This document shows, one piece after another, positions 20,431 through 48,312 of a stretch of 64,000 nt of DNA. Position 1 is the first letter of the stretch, and every line of letters begins with the position of its first letter. Location of the stretch: assembly GCF_013283835.1 (NCBI RefSeq), contig NZ_CP054052.1, forward strand, positions 2,480,001 to 2,544,000, written 5' to 3'. The position numbers and the translations under genes were made by a program. The notes below the pieces were generated by a model, which was not told the DNA's origin, did not search any database, and saw only the letters and a list, made by a program, of their open reading frames with translations. This DNA comes from Poseidonibacter lekithochrous. Its GTDB lineage: Bacteria > Campylobacterota > Campylobacteria > Campylobacterales > Arcobacteraceae.

Positions 20431-20581
20431 GATCCTGTCCTTTTTGTTTTTATTTATTTATTTATTTGTAATAATAACATTTTCATGTGTACTTCTTGTG
20501 TAAGTAAATTATATATAAATAAAAAAATAAATATATGATATTTTTTTAATTATAGCAAAAAACACTATATTTTTATTAAAG

Positions 20582-31336: not shown

Positions 31337-31399
31337 TAAGAACTACACACTTCTAACACATTGTCTTTTTATATAATTCCAAAAAACAAAAGGACAAAT

Positions 31400-31896: not shown

Positions 31897-31943
31897 AAAT
31901 GAAGGATAAAGACTATAAAACTTTAAGTTTATATCCTTCATTT
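31897..31943. terminator. Long-range inverted repeat between convergent rraA and the response-regulator gene
   Basis: AAATGAAGGATA pairs with TATCCTTCATTT over 12 bp with a 23-base loop. The right arm lies inside the last codons of the regulator gene. It may end transcription from either side. Confidence 0.45.
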
Positions 31944-32593
31944 ATAATGTTTTCAATTACATTTAGAGGAAGTTTTTTTCTAAGTTCTTTAATGAAAACT
32001 TTTAAAGCATTTTGTGTCATAAACTTCTCTCCCCAAATATATTCTTGAATCATTTCATAATTAACAATTATATTTTTATTCTCATGTAAAAGCTTCAAAA
32101 AATGTTTTTCTTTTTTTCTAATTTCTATTGTTTCATCATTATAAAATAAATGATTGTTTTCTAAATCTAAATATAAATTTTCTATTAAATGTATTTTTTC
32201 ATTTGTTTCTTTGAAAAGTACAGTTGAGATGGCTTTCATAAGTTTTTCATTTGTTGCTGGTTTTAAAATATAGTGATTAATATTATCATTAATTAGTTCT
32301 AATAAATACTCTTCAGTTGAGTATGCACTTAGAATAATAATAGGAGCAGAAAAACTTATTTTTCTGATCTTTTTTACAAGTTCTATTCCATTACCATTAT
32401 TCATTTCAATATCTAAAATACATAAATCAGGTTTACTCTCCACAAAAAGATCATAACCATCATAACCACAGTTGGCTTCATATACATTTTTAAAATAAAA
32501 CTTCAAAGTATTTGATAATCTTTTCCTAATTTCATCATCATCTTCTACTACTAATATATTTAAATCTTTTACTTTATTCGCTAATTGTTTCAT
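31913..32593 (-). CDS. OmpR-type response regulator of the TRAP region
   Basis: A 226-residue regulator: receiver (about 10-125) with ILVVEDDDEI, phospho-acceptor in LCILDIEM, ILSAYST and YILKPAT; then a winged-helix domain (about 140-226) with IEIRKKEKHFLKLLHENKNIIV, EYIWGEKF, ALKVFIKELRKKLP and IINEGYKL. It follows the sensor kinase by 10 bases. Three promoters nearby (34513, 35245, 39216) share tandem AACACA half-sites 11 bp apart, the geometry bound by this family, so it is the best candidate to control ridA, the TRAP genes and the VOC operon. That link is inference. Confidence 0.9.
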   Translation of the reverse strand: MKQLANKVKDLNILVVEDDDEIRKRLSNTLKFYFKNVYEANCGYDGYDLFVESKPDLCILDIEMNNGNGIELVKKIRKISFSAPIIILSAYSTEEYLLELINDNINHYILKPATNEKLMKAISTVLFKETNEKIHLIENLYLDLENNHLFYNDETIEIRKKEKHFLKLLHENKNIIVNYEMIQEYIWGEKFMTQNALKVFIKELRKKLPLNVIENIINEGYKLKVL

Positions 32594-32603
32594 TTATAAT
32601 CCT

Positions 32604-34433
32604 TTATACTTCTATTTTAAATATGGCACCATTTTTATCATTATTTACACTTAAAGAGCCTTCCATATGTTTTTCAATAATCATCTTACTCATATACAAA
32701 CCTAGCCCTGTACCTTGAGTTTTTTTTGTAGAAAAATATGGTTCAAAAATCATTTCAATATTATCAATTTTTATTCCACCTGCATTATCTTTTACAAAAA
32801 CTACGGATTTATCTTTTTTTACATCGATAATAAATTCAATTTTTTTATCTTTAATTTCTTTTGATATAAGTTCATCTTTTGCATTAATTAATAAATTCAA
32901 AATAACTTGAGAGTATTCTCTCTTATATCCTTTGATTTTTTTGTCTTTAATAACATGAGTATTTAGTTTTATATTTTCATTAGTAAAGGTATCTTTTATT
33001 AGAGCTTTAGCATCTTCACAAGCCTTTGATATTAGAAATTCTTCTTTCTTTTTTTCAGGTCTAAAAAAGTTCTTAAAATCCTCAATCGTAAAAGACATAT
33101 GTTCAATAATAGAAGTGGCATCACTTAAGGAAGTAAGTATATATTTTTTCTTTGCTTTTTTAAACTCTATACTAGTTTCTAGTTCCATAATTATTCCAGA
33201 TAATTGACTCAAAGGTTGTCGCCATTGATGGGAAATCATATTTATCAAAGTTCCCATACGGGCGAGTCTTGATTGATGTAACATTGCTCGATCTTTTGCT
33301 TTTGCTTCTTTTATTGCAAATTCAACTTTATTATTTAGATTTTTATTTAAGTCTTTTAGTTTTTCTTCTCTATTTTTAACTTTTTCTTGGTAACTACTTA
33401 TTGTTTGATTTATTTTTCTAGATATTTCAACTGCAATATAGGACATAAGCATTATTAAAAATAAAGAGATAATTGTCGTGATTTTTATATATTCAAAAAT
33501 TGTATTTTTTAAATCTGTTTTTCTTTCAGATATAACTTTTTGAAGATCATCAAAATATACCCCTGCTCCAATAACCCAATTCCATTCTTTGTACAACTTT
33601 ACATATGTTAATTTTTTTATCTTTTTTATTTGTTCTGGCTTATTCCAATAATACTCAACAAAAGCACCATCTTTATTTTTTATAGCCTCTTTAACAAATC
33701 TTTGTACAAAATAATCACCCTTTCCATCTAGTAATAAAGTATCATCTTTTCCAATATTATCTTTTCTATATGGATGAGATAAAAGAATATTTGTATTTTT
33801 ATAAATCCAAAAATAGTTATTATCACCAAATCTTAAATATTCACTCCATCTTGCAATAGTCTCTTTCAAATTATCTATATCATCGTAAATATCACGTTTT
33901 ATAGCAATGATAAGATTTTCTTTTTCATAAAATTTATAATAAAAAAGATTAGTTTCTTCTCTAATAATATAAAGCACCTTTTTCTTTTTAATCTCTTCTT
34001 TTAGAGATTCAATATCTTCTTTATAAAAAAATACATCTTCATTTTTTATAAAGAAGTTTTCCTTCTCTTTATAGATTATAAAATCACTATTTTTATTTGA
34101 ATATTGATTTATAATTTCTAAGTACTCTTTTGAGTTTGGAGTTTTTTCTTCTACTGTTTTATAAAAAGTCTCCATTTGTGTATTTAGATTCTTTTTTATA
34201 TTATCAAGAGTGATTTTTTTGTGGTACTGAATATAGTCATATATATACCCGATCTCTTTTTCTAAAATTACTTTTTGGTTTTTAATATAGTTTTTTTCAA
34301 CTTTTTTTACTTCTTCGTCTAAATAATCTTTTTGTATTGTAATAAGAGAATATAAAATCATACTAGATAGTGCTATGATCGTTAGTATTGGTGCAAATAT
34401 TATAAGTTTTGGTATATTTTTCTCACTAAACAT
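32604..34433 (-). CDS. Membrane sensor histidine kinase with Cache domain
   Basis: A 609-residue kinase. The first transmembrane segment (about 8-28) and second (about 316-336) flank a periplasmic Cache-type ligand domain with the FGDNNYFWIYKN and WNWVIGAGVYFDDL blocks typical of small-molecule sensors. A coiled coil follows, then the H-box NMISHQWRQPLSQLSG (about residues 398-413), N-box, and ATPase motifs DNAGGI and GTGLGLYMSKMI. It is paired with the regulator at 31913 and lies next to the TRAP genes, so the ligand may be the transported compound. Its start region is partly duplicated before the first dctP. Confidence 0.9.
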   Translation of the reverse strand: MFSEKNIPKLIIFAPILTIIALSSMILYSLITIQKDYLDEEVKKVEKNYIKNQKVILEKEIGYIYDYIQYHKKITLDNIKKNLNTQMETFYKTVEEKTPNSKEYLEIINQYSNKNSDFIIYKEKENFFIKNEDVFFYKEDIESLKEEIKKKKVLYIIREETNLFYYKFYEKENLIIAIKRDIYDDIDNLKETIARWSEYLRFGDNNYFWIYKNTNILLSHPYRKDNIGKDDTLLLDGKGDYFVQRFVKEAIKNKDGAFVEYYWNKPEQIKKIKKLTYVKLYKEWNWVIGAGVYFDDLQKVISERKTDLKNTIFEYIKITTIISLFLIMLMSYIAVEISRKINQTISSYQEKVKNREEKLKDLNKNLNNKVEFAIKEAKAKDRAMLHQSRLARMGTLINMISHQWRQPLSQLSGIIMELETSIEFKKAKKKYILTSLSDATSIIEHMSFTIEDFKNFFRPEKKKEEFLISKACEDAKALIKDTFTNENIKLNTHVIKDKKIKGYKREYSQVILNLLINAKDELISKEIKDKKIEFIIDVKKDKSVVFVKDNAGGIKIDNIEMIFEPYFSTKKTQGTGLGLYMSKMIIEKHMEGSLSVNNDKNGAIFKIEV

Positions 34434-34550
34434 TACTATATTCCTATTACTTTACTTTACTACCCTATCAAATATACTAACATATCTAAGCTTATTTATA
34501 ATCAATAAATTAAACACACTTTGAACACATATAAGGAAGTTAAACTTACC
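34428..34550. repeat. Upstream copy of a duplicated promoter region
   Basis: This stretch, from the kinase start codon to beyond the ridA -10 box, resembles 35158-35280 over about 120 bases. Shared blocks are TAAACATTACTAT, CTATTACTTTA, ATATACT, CAATCAAT or its one-base variant, AACACACT and GAACACATATAAG. Confidence 0.65.
34513..34546 (+). promoter_or_regulatory. Set A promoter of ridA: tandem AACACA half-sites and -10
   Basis: AACACA at 34513-34518 and again at 34524-34529 (11 bp apart), then 11 bases, then TAAACT at 34541-34546. The same geometry occurs at 35245 and 39216. Confidence 0.7.
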
Positions 34551-34583
34551 AATAACAAATAAAATTATAGAAAAAGGTAAATT

Positions 34584-35054
34584 ATGAATAAAATAGAAAA
34601 AAGACTAAAAGACCTTAATATAGTGCTTCCAAAAGCAAAAGAAGGTGTTGGAGCATATAAATCTTGGGCAATTTTTTCAGATAATATAGTTTGTACATCA
34701 GGACAACTTCCTTGGGAAAATGATGTTTTAGCATACACAGGTAAACTAGGAAAAGATGTAGATGTAGAAACAGGATATGATTGTGCAAGACTATGTACTA
34801 TTCATGCCATAGCTCAATTAAAAGAAGCTACAGGTGGTGATTTAAGTAAAGTAAAACAAATCATTAGAGTTGAGGGAAATATACAAACTACAGCAAACTT
34901 TTATAATCATGCAGAAGTCCTAAATGGTGCAAGTGAACTATTAAATGACGTATTTGGAGATATTGGCATTCATACAAGAACAGCACAAGGAATGAGTTCG
35001 TCACCTCTTAATTCACCAACTTTGATTTATCTTTTTGCAGAAATTGAAAAGTAA
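34584..35054 (+). CDS. RidA/YjgF-family protein
   Basis: A 156-residue protein of the longer RidA-like branch (YabJ/DUF1969-type, with an N-terminal helix before the core). Core features are GAYKSWAIFSDNIVCTSGQLP, LGKDVDVETGYDCARLCTIHAI and VIRVEGNIQT. RidA proteins hydrolyse reactive enamine/imine intermediates, but the longer branch is less well characterised and the catalytic Arg is not clear at its usual place. It has its own Set A promoter and terminator-like hairpin, and probably shares regulation with the TRAP genes. Confidence 0.87.
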   Translation: MNKIEKRLKDLNIVLPKAKEGVGAYKSWAIFSDNIVCTSGQLPWENDVLAYTGKLGKDVDVETGYDCARLCTIHAIAQLKEATGGDLSKVKQIIRVEGNIQTTANFYNHAEVLNGASELLNDVFGDIGIHTRTAQGMSSSPLNSPTLIYLFAEIEK

Positions 35055-35093
35055 TTCTATAAAAATTACATATATACACTAATAATAAATTAC

Positions 35094-35122
35094 AGTGTTT
35101 CTATTTTATTAATAGAAACACT
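35094..35122. terminator. Hairpin downstream of ridA
   Basis: AGTGTTTCTAT and ATAGAAACACT form an 11-bp stem with a 7-base loop. No strong T-run follows. Confidence 0.55.
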
Positions 35123-35157
35123 TCATCTAAAATAAGTACTCACTATAAAAATACTCT

Positions 35158-35280
35158 TCTAAACATTACTATTATTCTATTACTTTATTTTATTTCAGTA
35201 TTGGATATACTGTTATTATAAGCATATTTACAATCAATTAATAAAACACACTCTGAACACATATAAGAAAGTTAAACTTT
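35158..35280. repeat. Downstream copy of the duplicated promoter region
   Basis: It resembles 34428-34550, including a remnant that matches the kinase start region (TAAACATTACTAT) although no kinase gene starts here. Confidence 0.65.
35245..35278 (+). promoter_or_regulatory. Set A promoter of the TRAP operon
   Basis: AACACA at 35245-35250 and 35256-35261, 11 bp apart, then 11 bases, then TAAACT at 35273-35278. The ATG follows 27 bases after the -10 box with AAAAGGAG between. Confidence 0.72.
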
Positions 35281-35305
35281 GACAGAACAAAAAAAGGAGT
35301 AGAAA

Positions 35306-36343
35306 ATGAAAAAAATAGTATTACCAATACTTGCAGGATTAGTACTTGCATCAAGTGCTATTGCAGCACCAGAGAAACTAAGAGTAGTAGGTTCATGGGG
35401 ACATCTAACTATGTTTAGTGAGTTTGAAAAGCCTTATTGGAAAAAAGAATTTAAAAAAAGTTTTCCAAACACATCAACAAGAGTTACTTCTCTTGGGCAA
35501 GTAAAACTAAAAGGTTCAGCAGTTTATAGACAACTTGCAAAAGGTAGTTTTGATGTAGTATCTACAGTTGGAGGATATGTTGTATCAGATTCTCAAACAC
35601 TTGCAGGTCTTGATTTACCAGCAATTGCACCAGATATTCAAACAGCCAAGAAGATTGTAAACGCATACAAACCAACACTAGCAAAAGCATTAGCAAAAGA
35701 CTTTAATGCAATTCTTTTAGGAGTAACACCTTATCCCGCTCAAATTTTATTTTGTAATGAAAAAATTGATTCATTATCTGATTTAAAAGGGAAAAAAGTA
35801 AGAGCAGGAAGTTGGACAACAGCTGAATATCTTGATGGATTAGGAGCAACAGGAGTTACTCCACCTTTTAGTGAAATTGCATCTGCCTTACAAAGAGGTG
35901 TATTAGATTGTGCAATTGGTGGTGGATTATCAGGATATTCATCAGGATGGGGAAATATTTCTAAATACTTATATCCTATACCTGTTGGTGGTTGGGCATA
36001 TGTTTTAACAGCAATGAATATGGAAACTTGGAATAAGTTCTCAAAAGAAGAACAAGAAAAACTAATTAGTTCTTACAATACAAATGTAATTGAACCAGTT
36101 TGGGCTAAATCAGATTTCGAGTCAATTGAAGGTGTTAAATGTTTAACAGGACAAGATTGTTCTTACGGAAAGTCATACAACATGAACTTAGTCCAATTTA
36201 AAGAAAAAGATATTGCTATTTCTAAAAAAATACTAGAAGAAAGAGTTCTTCCAAAATGGTCTCAAAAAGTATCTTCTGAGGTTGTAAATGAGTGGAATAA
36301 CTCAGTTGGAAAAGTAGTTAATTTAAAAGCCGAAAAGGAATAG
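35306..36343 (+). CDS. dctP: TRAP transporter solute-binding protein (DctP family), copy 1
   Basis: A periplasmic binding protein of 345 residues with signal peptide LAGLVLASSAIAAPEK. The DctP fold signature FCNEKIDSLSDLKGKKVRAG includes the Arg that in this family grips the carboxylate of the ligand. Two Cys pairs (CLTGQDC) near residue 275 may form a disulfide. A strong AAAGGAG precedes the start. It is nearly identical in layout to the next gene, 3 bases on, so a tandem duplication. The ligand is not known; the name DctP is a family label only. Confidence 0.9.
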   Translation: MKKIVLPILAGLVLASSAIAAPEKLRVVGSWGHLTMFSEFEKPYWKKEFKKSFPNTSTRVTSLGQVKLKGSAVYRQLAKGSFDVVSTVGGYVVSDSQTLAGLDLPAIAPDIQTAKKIVNAYKPTLAKALAKDFNAILLGVTPYPAQILFCNEKIDSLSDLKGKKVRAGSWTTAEYLDGLGATGVTPPFSEIASALQRGVLDCAIGGGLSGYSSGWGNISKYLYPIPVGGWAYVLTAMNMETWNKFSKEEQEKLISSYNTNVIEPVWAKSDFESIEGVKCLTGQDCSYGKSYNMNLVQFKEKDIAISKKILEERVLPKWSQKVSSEVVNEWNNSVGKVVNLKAEKE

Positions 36344-36346
36344 GAA

Positions 36347-37381
36347 ATGAAAAGAATCACTTTAATAATTATTGCGGCGCTACTTTGTACTTCAAGTATA
36401 ATTGCGGCTCCTTCAAAAATGAGAGTTGTAGGACAATTCAGTAGTTTAGTTATGTACACTGAATTTGAAAAACCCTATTGGAAAAAAACTTTTGTAAAAG
36501 ATTTTCCTAATACAAAGGTAAGACTTTCTTCTGTTAGTCAAATGAAATTAAAAGGAGCAGCACCATATAGACAATTATCAAAAGGTGGATTTGATGTTGT
36601 TTCTATTATAGGTGGATATGTAGTATCTGATTCTCAAACAGTTGCAGGTTTAGATTTACCTGCAATAGCACCAGATATTCAAACTGCAAAAAAGATTGTT
36701 GATGCATATAAACCAACTTTAGAAAAAGCTATTAAAAAAGATTTTAATGCAAAACTTTTAGGAGTTATGCCTTATCCTGCACAAATATTATTTTGTAATG
36801 AAAAAATAGATTCATTAGCAGATTTAAAAGGGAAAAAAGTAAGAGCAGGAAGTTGGACTACGGCGGAGTTCTTAGATGGATTAGGAGCTACTGGTGTTAC
36901 AATGCAATATGGTGAGATATCTCAATCTTTACAAAGAGGTATTTTAGATTGTGCAATTGCAGGTGGGATTCCTGGATATACAGCCGCTTGGGGTGATATT
37001 TCAAAATACTTATATCCAATTCCAGTTGGTGGATGGGCATATGTTATAAGTGCTATGAATATGGAAACTTGGAATAAATTCTCAAAAGAAGAACAAAATA
37101 AGTTAATGAAATCATATAATCAAAATGTTATAGAACCAGTATGGAAGAAATCTGATTTTGAATCAATTGAAGCCGTTAATTGTTTAACAGGAAAAGGTTG
37201 TTCATATGGAAGACTTTATGATATGAATCTTGTAAAAGTTAAAGAAAAAGATTTAATTCTTTCTAAAAAAATATTAGAAGAAAGAGTTCTTCCAAAATGG
37301 GCAGAAAAAGTATCTGCTGAAGTTGTAACTGAGTGGAATAACTCAGTAGGAAAAGTAGTAAATCTAGAAGCAAAGGAATAA
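36347..37381 (+). CDS. dctP: TRAP transporter solute-binding protein (DctP family), copy 2
   Basis: A full-length paralogue (344 residues) of the gene before it, with its own signal peptide (LLCTSSIIAAPSK). Most of the sequence is shared, including DLKGKKVRAGSWTTAE and the CLTGKGC pair. Differences cluster around the binding cleft: TPPFSEIASALQRG becomes TMQYGEISQSLQRG, and GGGLSGYSSGWG becomes AGGIPGYTAAWG. So the two copies may bind different ligands. It lies 2 bases before the small permease gene. It is not a broken copy. Confidence 0.9.
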   Translation: MKRITLIIIAALLCTSSIIAAPSKMRVVGQFSSLVMYTEFEKPYWKKTFVKDFPNTKVRLSSVSQMKLKGAAPYRQLSKGGFDVVSIIGGYVVSDSQTVAGLDLPAIAPDIQTAKKIVDAYKPTLEKAIKKDFNAKLLGVMPYPAQILFCNEKIDSLADLKGKKVRAGSWTTAEFLDGLGATGVTMQYGEISQSLQRGILDCAIAGGIPGYTAAWGDISKYLYPIPVGGWAYVISAMNMETWNKFSKEEQNKLMKSYNQNVIEPVWKKSDFESIEAVNCLTGKGCSYGRLYDMNLVKVKEKDLILSKKILEERVLPKWAEKVSAEVVTEWNNSVGKVVNLEAKE

Positions 37382-37383
37382 AC

Positions 37384-37908
37384 ATGACAAAGAGTTTAAA
37401 ACACAGCTCTAAGTATATTGTTTATGCCTCTGGAGTTTTATTGTTTTTTTGTGCATTTTTAACAGCCATTGAAGTAATTTTACGAAAGTTCTTCCTCTTC
37501 TCTCTTGGAGGAGTGGATGAAATTTCTTCATATGTTTTAGCAATAACTGTTTCATGGTCAATTGCATATGTACTTTTTGAAAAAATGCATATTAGGATAG
37601 ATATTTTCTATCACATGATATCAAAAAAGTTTCAAAATTATTTGGATCTTTTATCAATGTTAATGAACTTTATATTTATTGCAATAATCACATATTATGC
37701 TTTTGATGTATTTTTAAGTTCATGGGAGAAAAACTCTCTTGCAAATACACCATTGGGAACACCCTTATGGATTCCTCAATTGTTGTGGTTTGCAGGGTTT
37801 ACTTTCTTTTTAATAGTTATTTTTGTTTTACTATATAAAAGTATTCAAAATATCTACTCAAAAGAAAAAAATGATTATTCAGATATAAAAAAGGAGATTG
37901 AATGTTAG
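37384..37908 (+). CDS. dctQ: TRAP transporter small permease (DctQ family)
   Basis: A 174-residue inner-membrane protein with four hydrophobic segments (about 11-31, 46-63, 87-105, 134-154). It has the family block FLFSLGGVDEISSYVLAITVSWSIAYV split over segments 1-2 and the late WIPQLLWFAGFTFF. It pairs with the large permease, whose start overlaps its end by 7 bases. Confidence 0.9.
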   Translation: MTKSLKHSSKYIVYASGVLLFFCAFLTAIEVILRKFFLFSLGGVDEISSYVLAITVSWSIAYVLFEKMHIRIDIFYHMISKKFQNYLDLLSMLMNFIFIAIITYYAFDVFLSSWEKNSLANTPLGTPLWIPQLLWFAGFTFFLIVIFVLLYKSIQNIYSKEKNDYSDIKKEIEC

Positions 37909-39188
37909 CAGTTATATTATCATTTCTAATACTATTATCTTTTTTAATTTTGTCTGTACCTGTTGCATCATCAATTGCAGGTGTAGCTATTATAATAGGT
38001 ACATTTTTCTCAGATTATCCAATATTTAGTTCAATTGGAGAATTAACATGGAGTACAAGTACTGAATATATACTTTTATCTATTCCATTTTTTGTTCTTC
38101 TAGGAGAATTATTATTACATTCAGGAATGGCTAGAAAAATATATTTTGCAATTAATGTATGGTTATCATGGCTTCCTGGCGGATTGATGCATTCAAATGT
38201 TGCCGCATCAACGTTTTTTTCTTCAATATCAGGATCTTCCGTTGCAACAGCAGCAACAATAACAACTGTTGCCATGCCTCAAGGGAAAAAATATGGTTAT
38301 GAAGAAGGCTTATTTGCTGGATCAATTGCCGCAGGGGGAACACTAGGAATACTAATTCCACCTTCTTTAAACTTGATTATTTATGGTTTTTTAACAAACA
38401 CCTCAATTCCTGCTTTATTTATGGCAGGTTTACTTCCGGGAATTGTTTTAGCCTTATTATTTATGTTTTATATTTTTATTCATGATAAATATAGAAATAG
38501 TGCAAAAAAAGAAGTAGAGAAATATACATGGAAACAAAAATTTAGTGAACTAAAAAACTTTGTACCAACATTATCTTTATTTGCATTAGTAATGGGAACT
38601 ATTTATACAGGATTAGCAACACCTACAGAAAGTGCTGCAATTGGAGTTCTGGGAGCATTAGCAATTATTTATTTCTCAAAACTTCTAACAAAAGAAGTAC
38701 TTATTAAATCAATTGAAGGAACAATGAAAACAACAGGAATGATAATGTTAATTATACTTGCTGCTAATTTTCTGAATTATGTTTTAATCTCAATAGGATT
38801 AATAGATGAAATTGAATATTTTCTTGAAGATTTAAATATCTCAAAATATATGCTTCTATTTGTAATTACTATAATTTTTATTGTTTTAGGATTATTTATT
38901 GAAACTTTATCTCTTATGGTAATTACTATTCCAATAGTTGCTCCAATAGCTATAAGTATGGGCTTTGATGGAGTATGGTTAGGTATATATCTAATTATAT
39001 TAATTGAAATGGCTTTAATTACTCCACCTGTTGGACTTAATTTATATGTAGTTCAAAGTATAAGAAAAAGTGGCTCTGTTGTAGAAGTAATGAAAGGATG
39101 TATTCCTTTTGTTTTAATAATGTGTCTAATGGCATTTTTATTAGTATTATTTCCTCAGATTGCACTTTATCTAGTTCAGTTTGTATAA
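37902..39188 (+). CDS. dctM: TRAP transporter large permease (DctM family)
   Basis: A 428-residue sodium-coupled transport subunit with about 12 hydrophobic segments. Family blocks are SIPFFVLLGELLLHSGMA, FFSSISGSSVATAATI, AAGGTLGILIPPSLNLIIYG, TGLATPTESAAIGVLGAL and EMALITPPVGLNLYV. It overlaps dctQ and closes the operon with a hairpin at 39191. Together with the binding proteins it imports an unidentified, probably carboxylate, solute. Confidence 0.93.
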   Translation: MLAVILSFLILLSFLILSVPVASSIAGVAIIIGTFFSDYPIFSSIGELTWSTSTEYILLSIPFFVLLGELLLHSGMARKIYFAINVWLSWLPGGLMHSNVAASTFFSSISGSSVATAATITTVAMPQGKKYGYEEGLFAGSIAAGGTLGILIPPSLNLIIYGFLTNTSIPALFMAGLLPGIVLALLFMFYIFIHDKYRNSAKKEVEKYTWKQKFSELKNFVPTLSLFALVMGTIYTGLATPTESAAIGVLGALAIIYFSKLLTKEVLIKSIEGTMKTTGMIMLIILAANFLNYVLISIGLIDEIEYFLEDLNISKYMLLFVITIIFIVLGLFIETLSLMVITIPIVAPIAISMGFDGVWLGIYLIILIEMALITPPVGLNLYVVQSIRKSGSVVEVMKGCIPFVLIMCLMAFLLVLFPQIALYLVQFV

Positions 39189-39190
39189 AA

Positions 39191-39212
39191 ATGAGGTTTA
39201 AAAACCTCATTT
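39191..39212 (+). terminator. Hairpin after the TRAP operon
   Basis: ATGAGGTTT pairs with AAACCTCAT, followed by TTTAG. It lies 2 bases after the stop and just before the Set A promoter of the VOC operon. Confidence 0.6.
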
Positions 39213-39215
39213 AGA

Positions 39216-39249
39216 AAGACATCTCGAACACATTTGGGAAAGTTATACT
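39216..39249 (+). promoter_or_regulatory. Set A promoter of the VOC operon
   Basis: AAGACA at 39216-39221 and AACACA at 39227-39232, 11 bp apart, then 11 bases, then TATACT at 39244-39249. It matches the ridA and TRAP promoters in geometry with four changes across the downstream half. Confidence 0.68.
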
Positions 39250-39277: not shown

Positions 39278-39703
39278 ATGAAAATCACATTTGATCATGT
39301 GTCACTAAGAGCAAAAAATTTAGAATCTATGAAAGATTTCCTAGTGGAACTATTAGGATTAGAAATAGGTGCTAGACCTAATTTTCCATTTCCTGGATAT
39401 TGGTTATATACAGAAGGTACTGAAAATGCACTTATTCATATTTATGATGAAGATGCATCTTTTTATAAAAAAGATTTAATAAAAGAAGATTTCAAAGAAG
39501 AGTCATCAGGAAAAAACATAGTAAATCATATATGTTTTTCAAGTGATAATTACGAAGAAATCATGGAAAGAATTGCAAAATTAAATACAGACTATTCAAT
39601 AAATCTAGTGCCAAACTCACCTATTGAACAAATATTTATTAAAGCACCAGAAAATTTAATTATAGAAATTCAAGCTATACCAAAAGATAAAAAGAAGCAA
39701 TAA
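39278..39703 (+). CDS. VOC-superfamily (glyoxalase/dioxygenase fold) protein
   Basis: A 141-residue protein with a single pair of beta-alpha-beta-beta-beta units. It starts ITFDHVSLRAKNLESMKDFL with the first metal-site His, has ALIHIYDED mid-protein and NHICFSSDNYEEIMERI opening the second half, and the final Glu in NLIIEIQAI. So the usual His/Glu metal ligands appear present. The substrate is unknown; it shares regulation with the TRAP genes and is coupled by one base to the next gene (TAATG). Confidence 0.83.
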   Translation: MKITFDHVSLRAKNLESMKDFLVELLGLEIGARPNFPFPGYWLYTEGTENALIHIYDEDASFYKKDLIKEDFKEESSGKNIVNHICFSSDNYEEIMERIAKLNTDYSINLVPNSPIEQIFIKAPENLIIEIQAIPKDKKKQ

Positions 39704-40548
39704 TGAAAATACCAAATTTAATTGAAAATAAACTTGAGTTTATTAAACTTGCACAAAGTTTAAAGAATAAAAACAAAACTATTAATCTAGGAGTAACTAA
39801 CCTATCTTTTCATAGAGTTACAGCAGCTTTAGTAACTTATATCTTAAAAGAAATGGGATTTGAAGTAAATAGAACTTTTGCACTTCATGAAGAGAACTTT
39901 GAAAGATTAAAAAACAAAAAGATTGATATGATAAGTTCAGCTTGGATTCCTTCAAGTCATGGTGTTTATAAGAAAAATGTAGAAGAAGCTTTTCCTTTGA
40001 TTGAATTAGGTCTTCATTATGAACCATATGCTTTATGGGGTGTACCTTCATATGTTCCCAAAGAAGAGGTATCTGAAATTTCTGATTTATTAAAAATTAA
40101 TGTAATAGATAAAATGAACAATAAAATACAAGGTATTGGATTAGGTGCTGGGATTACTAGATTTTCTATAAAAATGATGGATGAATATTCTTTAAAAAGT
40201 GCTGGTTATGAGTTTTTTACAGGAACACAGGATGAATGTATAAAAGCTTTTGAAGAAGCAGTTAAAAAGAAGGAATGGGTAATTGTTCCTCTTTGGCAAC
40301 CTCAATATCTACATCATACTTATAAAATTAGAGAATTATCTGATCCAAAAGGATTATTAGGAATAATTGATAGAGCAGTTTTACTTTGTAATAAAAGCCA
40401 TACAGAATCTTTATTTGATGAAAATCAAATAAGAATATTAGATAAGATCATATTAAATAATGAAATTATATCTGAACTTGACTATTACCATAGTGTAGAA
40501 GGATTAAGTGAAGATGAATCAATTCAAAAATGGATTGAAAAAATATAA
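39703..40548 (+). CDS. OpuAC/ProX-like betaine-binding-fold protein lacking a signal peptide
   Basis: A 281-residue protein of the glycine-betaine substrate-binding family (PF04069-like). It has KTINLGVTNLSFHRVTAAL, the SAWIPSSHGVYKK motif, YEPYALWGVPSYVP, GLGAGITRFS and WVIVPLWQPQYLHH, which supply Trp/Tyr residues of the kind that cage quaternary amines. The start is fixed by the TAATG overlap with the VOC gene, and the first 30 residues are hydrophilic, so it has no visible export signal. No ABC permease or ATPase partner is nearby. A cytoplasmic sensor, carrier or enzyme is possible. Confidence 0.82.
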   Translation: MKIPNLIENKLEFIKLAQSLKNKNKTINLGVTNLSFHRVTAALVTYILKEMGFEVNRTFALHEENFERLKNKKIDMISSAWIPSSHGVYKKNVEEAFPLIELGLHYEPYALWGVPSYVPKEEVSEISDLLKINVIDKMNNKIQGIGLGAGITRFSIKMMDEYSLKSAGYEFFTGTQDECIKAFEEAVKKKEWVIVPLWQPQYLHHTYKIRELSDPKGLLGIIDRAVLLCNKSHTESLFDENQIRILDKIILNNEIISELDYYHSVEGLSEDESIQKWIEKI

Positions 40549-48222: not shown

Positions 48223-48312
48223 TAAATAGGAAATAAAACAAGTCCATTTACAATTAATTATCTAAAGATTTTACAAATGTTAGTTATTATTAAAAATATG
48301 AAGGTTCAAAAA

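Follow-up and report, generated by a model that had tools for sequence, protein, structure and literature searches.

What coordinates the genes around a tripartite ATP-independent periplasmic (TRAP) transporter of Poseidonibacter lekithochrous, an Arcobacter-type marine bacterium, and which protein reads the repeats preceding them? We addressed this question in a 64-kb stretch of DNA (the window; bases 2480001-2544000 of the 3.57-Mb single-contig genome), in which genes for a Cache-domain sensor kinase and a response regulator (the 31913 regulator) lie next to the TRAP operon, a ridA gene, and a unit encoding a VOC-superfamily protein. The initial annotation had reported a pair of AACACA-like half-sites followed by a -10-like sequence before the ridA, TRAP, and VOC units, and all three sites were confirmed to the letter. 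The set was, however, incomplete, as a fourth site precedes an RraA-like gene at 31344. On the basis of sequence comparison, we consider it very probable that these units form a local two-component regulon, in which the kinase and the 31913 regulator would activate the four units of the TRAP locus through the tandem sites.

The exact pattern (AANACA-N5-AACACA-N11-TAWACT) has exactly three matches in the whole genome, all at the reported sites, and none with a single mismatch. When up to two mismatches were allowed, 16 genome matches were obtained versus 10 for a reversed control pattern, and this mismatch-tolerant search was rejected as a sole test; because it discriminated so poorly, models built on relatives only were used instead. 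The two half-sites alone, with at most one mismatch, occur 10 times in the window versus 3.5 expected (0 of 100 shuffles reached 10), and only the three reported sites among these are exact. Since the full pattern had been drawn up after the sites were seen, a position matrix and an Infernal model derived from relatives provide a more independent test. The matrix was seeded from the window sites and then refitted on the promoters of relatives only, and the sequence-only Infernal model was built from 17 relatives' sites; doubtful automatic picks of kinase promoters in genomes G023 and G122, as well as a near-identical TRAP site of G122, were excluded from the latter and retained in the former. 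Across the window, the matrix placed its best matches at 35242, 39213, 31341, and 34510, in descending order from 32.7 to 26.1 bits, followed by a next match of only 6.2 bits. Likewise, ranks 1 to 4 of the Infernal model in the 3.57-Mb genome were the four window sites (E values of 1.3e-4 to 5.3e-3), and the next match had an E value of 0.11. As judged from this ranking, the four sites are confined to one locus of the genome.

We further compared the locus among relatives. A close orthologue of TRAP binding protein 1 (at least 64% identity) was found in 12 genomes including the window genome, with identities of 64 to 82% in the 11 relatives; of the loci given by a contig scan for the binding protein, just two were of use, including one from Poseidonibacter ostreae. 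An operator of the same geometry precedes the TRAP binding-protein gene in all 11 relatives with orthologous TRAP genes, the VOC-carrying unit in 3 of 3 relatives (G011, G107, and G006, the last a genome listed under the same genus), and the kinase gene in G105, G025, G022, and G030. The 17 relatives' sites and the four window sites all have an 11-bp period and a constant spacing of 11 bp from the -10. Pairwise identity among 20 promoters was 0.76 to 0.79 in the half-sites and 0.76 in the -10, compared with 0.36 in the flanks, 0.48 in the linker, and 0.45 in the spacer; part of this contrast is built in because the promoter sites were picked by score, and the genome-wide ranking is independent of that selection. 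Thus, relatives that retain the genes also retain the half-sites, and the outcome named in the initial annotation as refuting the regulon did not occur. Besides, gene order at the locus differs among the relatives that keep the sites. In the window genome, RidA (orthologues 83 to 89% identical) is encoded by an operator-led single gene; in G107 and G006, its gene is part of the VOC unit, which is likewise led by an operator, and RraA in G006 lies behind an MFS gene that has its own operator. Since regulon membership is retained while operon layout varies, this is good evidence of coregulation. Comparative sequence analysis thereby establishes that the sites exist, are conserved, and occur only at this locus of the genome.

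The features of the locus are summarized in Table 1. Both domains of the 31913 regulator, the receiver and Trans_reg_C, exceeded their cut-offs, assigning it to the OmpR/PhoB family, whereas its score with the PhoB equivalog model TIGR02154 was below the cut-off (88 versus 296 bits). Its orthologues beside TRAP genes are 54 to 75% identical. The 32604-34433 product combines a periplasmic Cache domain with HATPase and is hence a Cache-domain sensor kinase, and one operon holds PF03480 twice together with PF04290 and PF06808, as in a DctP-type TRAP transporter. The RraA-like gene was assigned the start codon ATG 31400; a start at the alternative TTG (31361), which is flanked by the second half-site and the -10, is improbable. 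The RraA-like orthologue in G006 is 82% identical and adjoins the equivalent regulator. In each of the four genomes that have the VOC unit (the window genome, G011, G107, and G006), a hairpin read by eye parts dctM from the operator of that unit, and the hairpins of the three relatives differ in sequence and share the same position. No hydrophobic leader was visible by eye at the N terminus of the OpuAC-fold protein or of its G006 orthologue, and the protein is probably cytoplasmic; ABC transporter genes are not directly beside its gene.

Table 1. Features of the TRAP locus (positions in the window)
Feature	Position	Strand	Basis
Operator/promoter of the RraA-like gene, TACACA-CTTCT-AACACA-N11-TATAAT (TACACACTTCTAACACA-N11-TATAAT)	31344..31377	+	27.2 bits, relatives-only matrix; genome-wide E 2.5e-4, genome rank 2
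RraA-like aldolase family protein, 160 aa	31400..31882	+	Pfam PF03737, E 5e-35
OmpR/PhoB-family response regulator (receiver and winged helix)	31913..32593	-	PF00072, E 7e-24; PF00486, E 1e-11
Membrane sensor kinase, periplasmic dCache_2/sCache_2 and HATPase	32604..34433	-	PF08269, E 9e-28; PF17200; PF02518
Duplicated segment copy 1, kinase start to ridA start	34426..34596		Local alignment
ridA operator/promoter, AACACA-CTTTG-AACACA-N11-TAAACT	34513..34546	+	26.1 bits, relatives-only matrix; genome-wide E 5.3e-3
RidA-superfamily protein, YjgF_endoribonc type	34584..35054	+	Pfam PF14588
Duplicated segment copy 2, with relic of kinase gene start	35159..35318		Local alignment
TRAP operon operator/promoter, AACACA-CTCTG-AACACA-N11-TAAACT	35245..35278	+	32.7 bits, relatives-only matrix; genome-wide E 1.4e-3
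TRAP solute-binding protein 1, DctP family	35306..36343	+	PF03480, E 2e-16
TRAP solute-binding protein 2	36347..37381	+	PF03480; 76% identical to binding protein 1
TRAP small permease DctQ	37384..37908	+	PF04290
TRAP large permease DctM	37902..39188	+	PF06808; NCBIfam TIGR00786
Terminator-like hairpin AAAATGAGGTTTAAAAACCTCATTT between dctM and VOC operator	39190..39214		Read from sequence
VOC unit operator/promoter, AAGACA-TCTCG-AACACA-N11-TATACT	39216..39249	+	31.5 bits, relatives-only matrix; genome-wide E 1.3e-4, genome's best match
VOC-superfamily (glyoxalase-like) protein	39278..39703	+	Pfam PF00903, E 4e-4
OpuAC-fold (betaine/choline-binding-like) protein	39703..40548	+	Pfam PF04069, E 7e-48

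How such a switch might operate can be proposed from these elements. On sensing a periplasmic solute that is small and probably acidic, the Cache kinase would phosphorylate the 31913 regulator, two molecules of which would bind the tandem half-sites (nnNACA-N5-nnNACA) head-to-tail with an 11-bp period. Being always 11 bp from the -10, the tandem repeats lie over the -35 region; the half-sites would thus occupy the -35 place, with a -10 box (GTTAtAcTtT-like) beginning 11 bp past the second half-site, and the bound regulator would stand in for a weak -35 and recruit RNA polymerase. This is consistent with the PHO box, which consists of two 11-nucleotide direct repeats, tandem 11-nucleotide repeats being typical of OmpR/PhoB-family operators (PMC4415409), and with PceP of Sulfurospirillum, a member of the same phylum, which recognizes direct repeats located at the -35 (PMC7755780). 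The four responding units would be the RraA-like gene, the RidA-type gene, the TRAP importer with its two binding proteins, and the VOC gene with the OpuAC-fold gene, whose products may import and process one class of carboxylates. Thus, the initial view of one ligand-induced system read by the Cache kinase most likely holds as far as a local regulon with the adjacent kinase and regulator is concerned, whereas from the sequences we can only infer binding and phosphorylation of the regulator, induction (activation rather than repression), and a ligand.

The initial annotation had also taken the identical architecture of a second, TTCAC-type set as a sign that the window holds two paralogous circuits insulated from each other, a view that is not supported in that form. 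Regulators of this family generally use an 11-bp geometry, and its presence in the TTCAC set is therefore of little significance; besides, the regulator at 48277 is only 24% identical, and the TTCAC-side kinase (48975) matches HAMP/HisKA and no Cache domain, unlike a close paralogue. By sequence comparison, the true close paralogue of the window circuit lies at 1.27 Mb in the same genome and comprises a Cache kinase, a regulator 48 to 49% identical to the 31913 regulator, TRAP genes, and the 5-oxoprolinase genes pxpABC. Its architecture, with tandem sites before the kinase and TRAP genes, is the same, whereas its sites are ACTCAC-N5-ACTCAC (half-site ACTCA versus ACACA in the window), its binding protein is 2pfz/2pfy-like, and 5-oxoprolinase genes follow. 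The ACTCAC-type site with a -10-like sequence has three exact copies in the genome (before the kinase gene, before the TRAP genes, and at 2.374 Mb) versus none for a control pattern. The third copy (2374299-2374331, minus strand; L144) precedes a gene for a 632-amino-acid flavin amine-oxidase-family protein and is far from the presumed regulator at 1.27 Mb.

Residues just before the recognition helix pair with the type of site: among the regulators with visible sites (about 25 of 27, from four clades), MT-x-(N/D/H) accompanies ACACA-type sites, and ACTCA-type sites are found with MS-x-(S/A/N), a match that may reflect only one or two independent changes. An apparent exception in G112, a paralogue-type regulator next to a window-type site, was dismissed because the matching regulator was found truncated at a contig end. 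It is conceivable, if somewhat doubtful, that paralogous Cache-kinase/OmpR-type circuits, most of them next to importers, form a family in Arcobacteraceae whose members share one operator geometry and are insulated by a one-base change in the half-site together with a one-residue change in the regulator. In G022 (L105) and G105 (L102), the two paralogous TRAP systems adjoin each other, together with genes for D-glutamate cyclase and PxpABC; divergent from the kinase gene is a gene with a mixed site (AAAACTCAC...ACACACT in G105) that both regulators may read.

These comparisons bear on who reads the operators. Real operators could be read by another OmpR-family regulator of the genome, alone or with cross-talk, given that the genome holds dozens of regulator matches, several of them 46 to 50% identical with similar recognition helices, and that the sites of the paralogue differ at one central base. 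We regard this as improbable, however: the type of site tracks the clade of the adjacent regulator wherever both are seen, G112 included, and the best sites of the genome cluster only around the 31913 regulator. A different concern is raised by the upstream regions of ridA and the TRAP operon, which align with each other over about 160 to 170 bp, kinase gene start included (local alignment score of 181 versus a shuffle maximum of 80). Judging from this alignment, the two sites are one by descent; as their promoters are copies of one segment, they are not independent evidence, and the window holds three independent sites. The repeats might even be a by-product of such local duplication and of promoter composition with no regulator involved, as the organism is AT rich and -10-like sequences are common. 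Yet the flanks of the VOC and RraA sites are unrelated, conservation in relatives covers the half-sites and not the flanks or linker, and the genome-wide ranking selects only the four window sites; the matrix, the ranking, and the conservation footprint have already largely refuted this explanation, which we find scarcely credible.

The regulator might also act in the opposite sense, as a repressor that blocks the -35 region until a signal releases it. The sites do overlap the place where RNA polymerase would contact the -35, and overlap alone is no proof of activation; however, no good -35 hexamer was seen at the expected place by eye, just as PhoB-type activated promoters have none, and we consider repression unlikely. 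Activation of the four units by the kinase and the 31913 regulator is thus the reading we prefer, and several observations weigh against it as well. Apart from the many related regulators mentioned above, the genome-wide E values are modest and were calibrated only briefly. Few genomes have the OpuAC-fold gene, which matched in 2 of 298 sampled genomes of the class and was also found in G006 and, as a partial match, in G309. Moreover, in G006 a separate gene, whose site is weaker (16 bits), lies ahead of the RraA orthologue, and neither RraA nor RidA was seen at the G011 locus.

With regard to the substrate, a carboxylate resembling 5-oxoproline or D-glutamate is a tentative candidate. TRAP operons of the window type in relatives carry D-glutamate cyclase and the paralogous circuit carries 5-oxoprolinase genes; in G025, matrix matches also occur before genes resembling pxpABC in size and order. 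The binding protein of the 1.27-Mb circuit strongly matches 2pfz and 2pfy (E values of 8e-44 and 2e-36), which we take to be the pyroglutamate-binding DctP proteins of Bordetella, whereas for the window binding protein 2pfz is only the fourth match (E value of 3.7e-12), behind 4n4u and 5i5p/5iga. Binding of pyroglutamate by Bordetella DctP proteins has been reported (PMC12344293, PMC5812351). An equivalent of SiaP Arg-147 is present in 96.8% of DctP proteins, and this conserved arginine selects carboxylates (PMC4646407); the window binding protein has an arginine in the matching stretch, GKKVRAGS. Since the window locus has VOC, RidA, and the OpuAC-fold protein instead, the substrate may have changed.

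Other repeats were observed in the course of this analysis. At 694960-695760 on the minus strand (L142), about 800 bp without long open reading frames contain, by eye, about four successive promoter-like units, in which tandem ACA repeats of 11-bp period precede a -10. After each unit comes a short stretch containing TTAGC and CTCCT-like motifs and, in some cases, terminator-like repeats. The region gave no Rfam match at the gathering score, no tRNA, and no long DNA match in 25 relatives, and possibly encodes sibling small RNAs with anti-Shine-Dalgarno seeds, clustered in tandem and controlled by an OmpR-type regulator. Three weaker model matches at 695 kb were set aside as they do not precede long open reading frames. 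In the window, a tandem site with a different half-site (TTACACAAGAAGTACACA; 20485-20520, minus strand), absent from the matrix matches, is followed by a -10-like TTATTA and precedes the 20020-20430 gene. In G006 (L048:1900-2040), the MFS and RraA-like genes flank a long inverted repeat (CCCAAAAGGTTTGAGTATGAAC ... GTTCATACTCAAACCTTTTGGG).

Compared with known systems, the circuit is most likely an ordinary kind of switch, with a close copy in the same genome that differs by one landmark letter. The PhoB half-site is TGTCA, whereas that of the window is nnNACA, read with a Cache kinase as the putative sensor and a TRAP importer as the target. Tandem head-to-tail 11-nucleotide direct repeats and a winged-helix response regulator are common to both (PMC4415409). 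PceS/PceP of Sulfurospirillum likewise combines an OmpR-family regulator with direct repeats overlapping the -35 in several units near the kinase and regulator genes, although it has its own repeat, CTATW with a 17-bp gap, and controls tetrachloroethene respiration (PMC7755780). In Bordetella, the BctDE pair adjoins and activates a binding-protein-dependent carboxylate importer, BctCBA (PMC5812351), which is a tripartite tricarboxylate transporter for citrate and not a TRAP system; this comparison concerns the genes. A description of such a circuit in Arcobacter was not found in the open-access literature searched.

Two-component systems are numerous in the Arcobacter butzleri genome, mostly without functional prediction (PMC2147049). 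In a group with such poorly assigned systems, the locus offers a defined four-unit regulon with a candidate reader and binding sites and, together with its close paralogue, a natural test of how duplicated regulators distinguish nearly identical operators. It would also place RidA, VOC, RraA-like, and OpuAC-fold proteins in one solute-utilization program.

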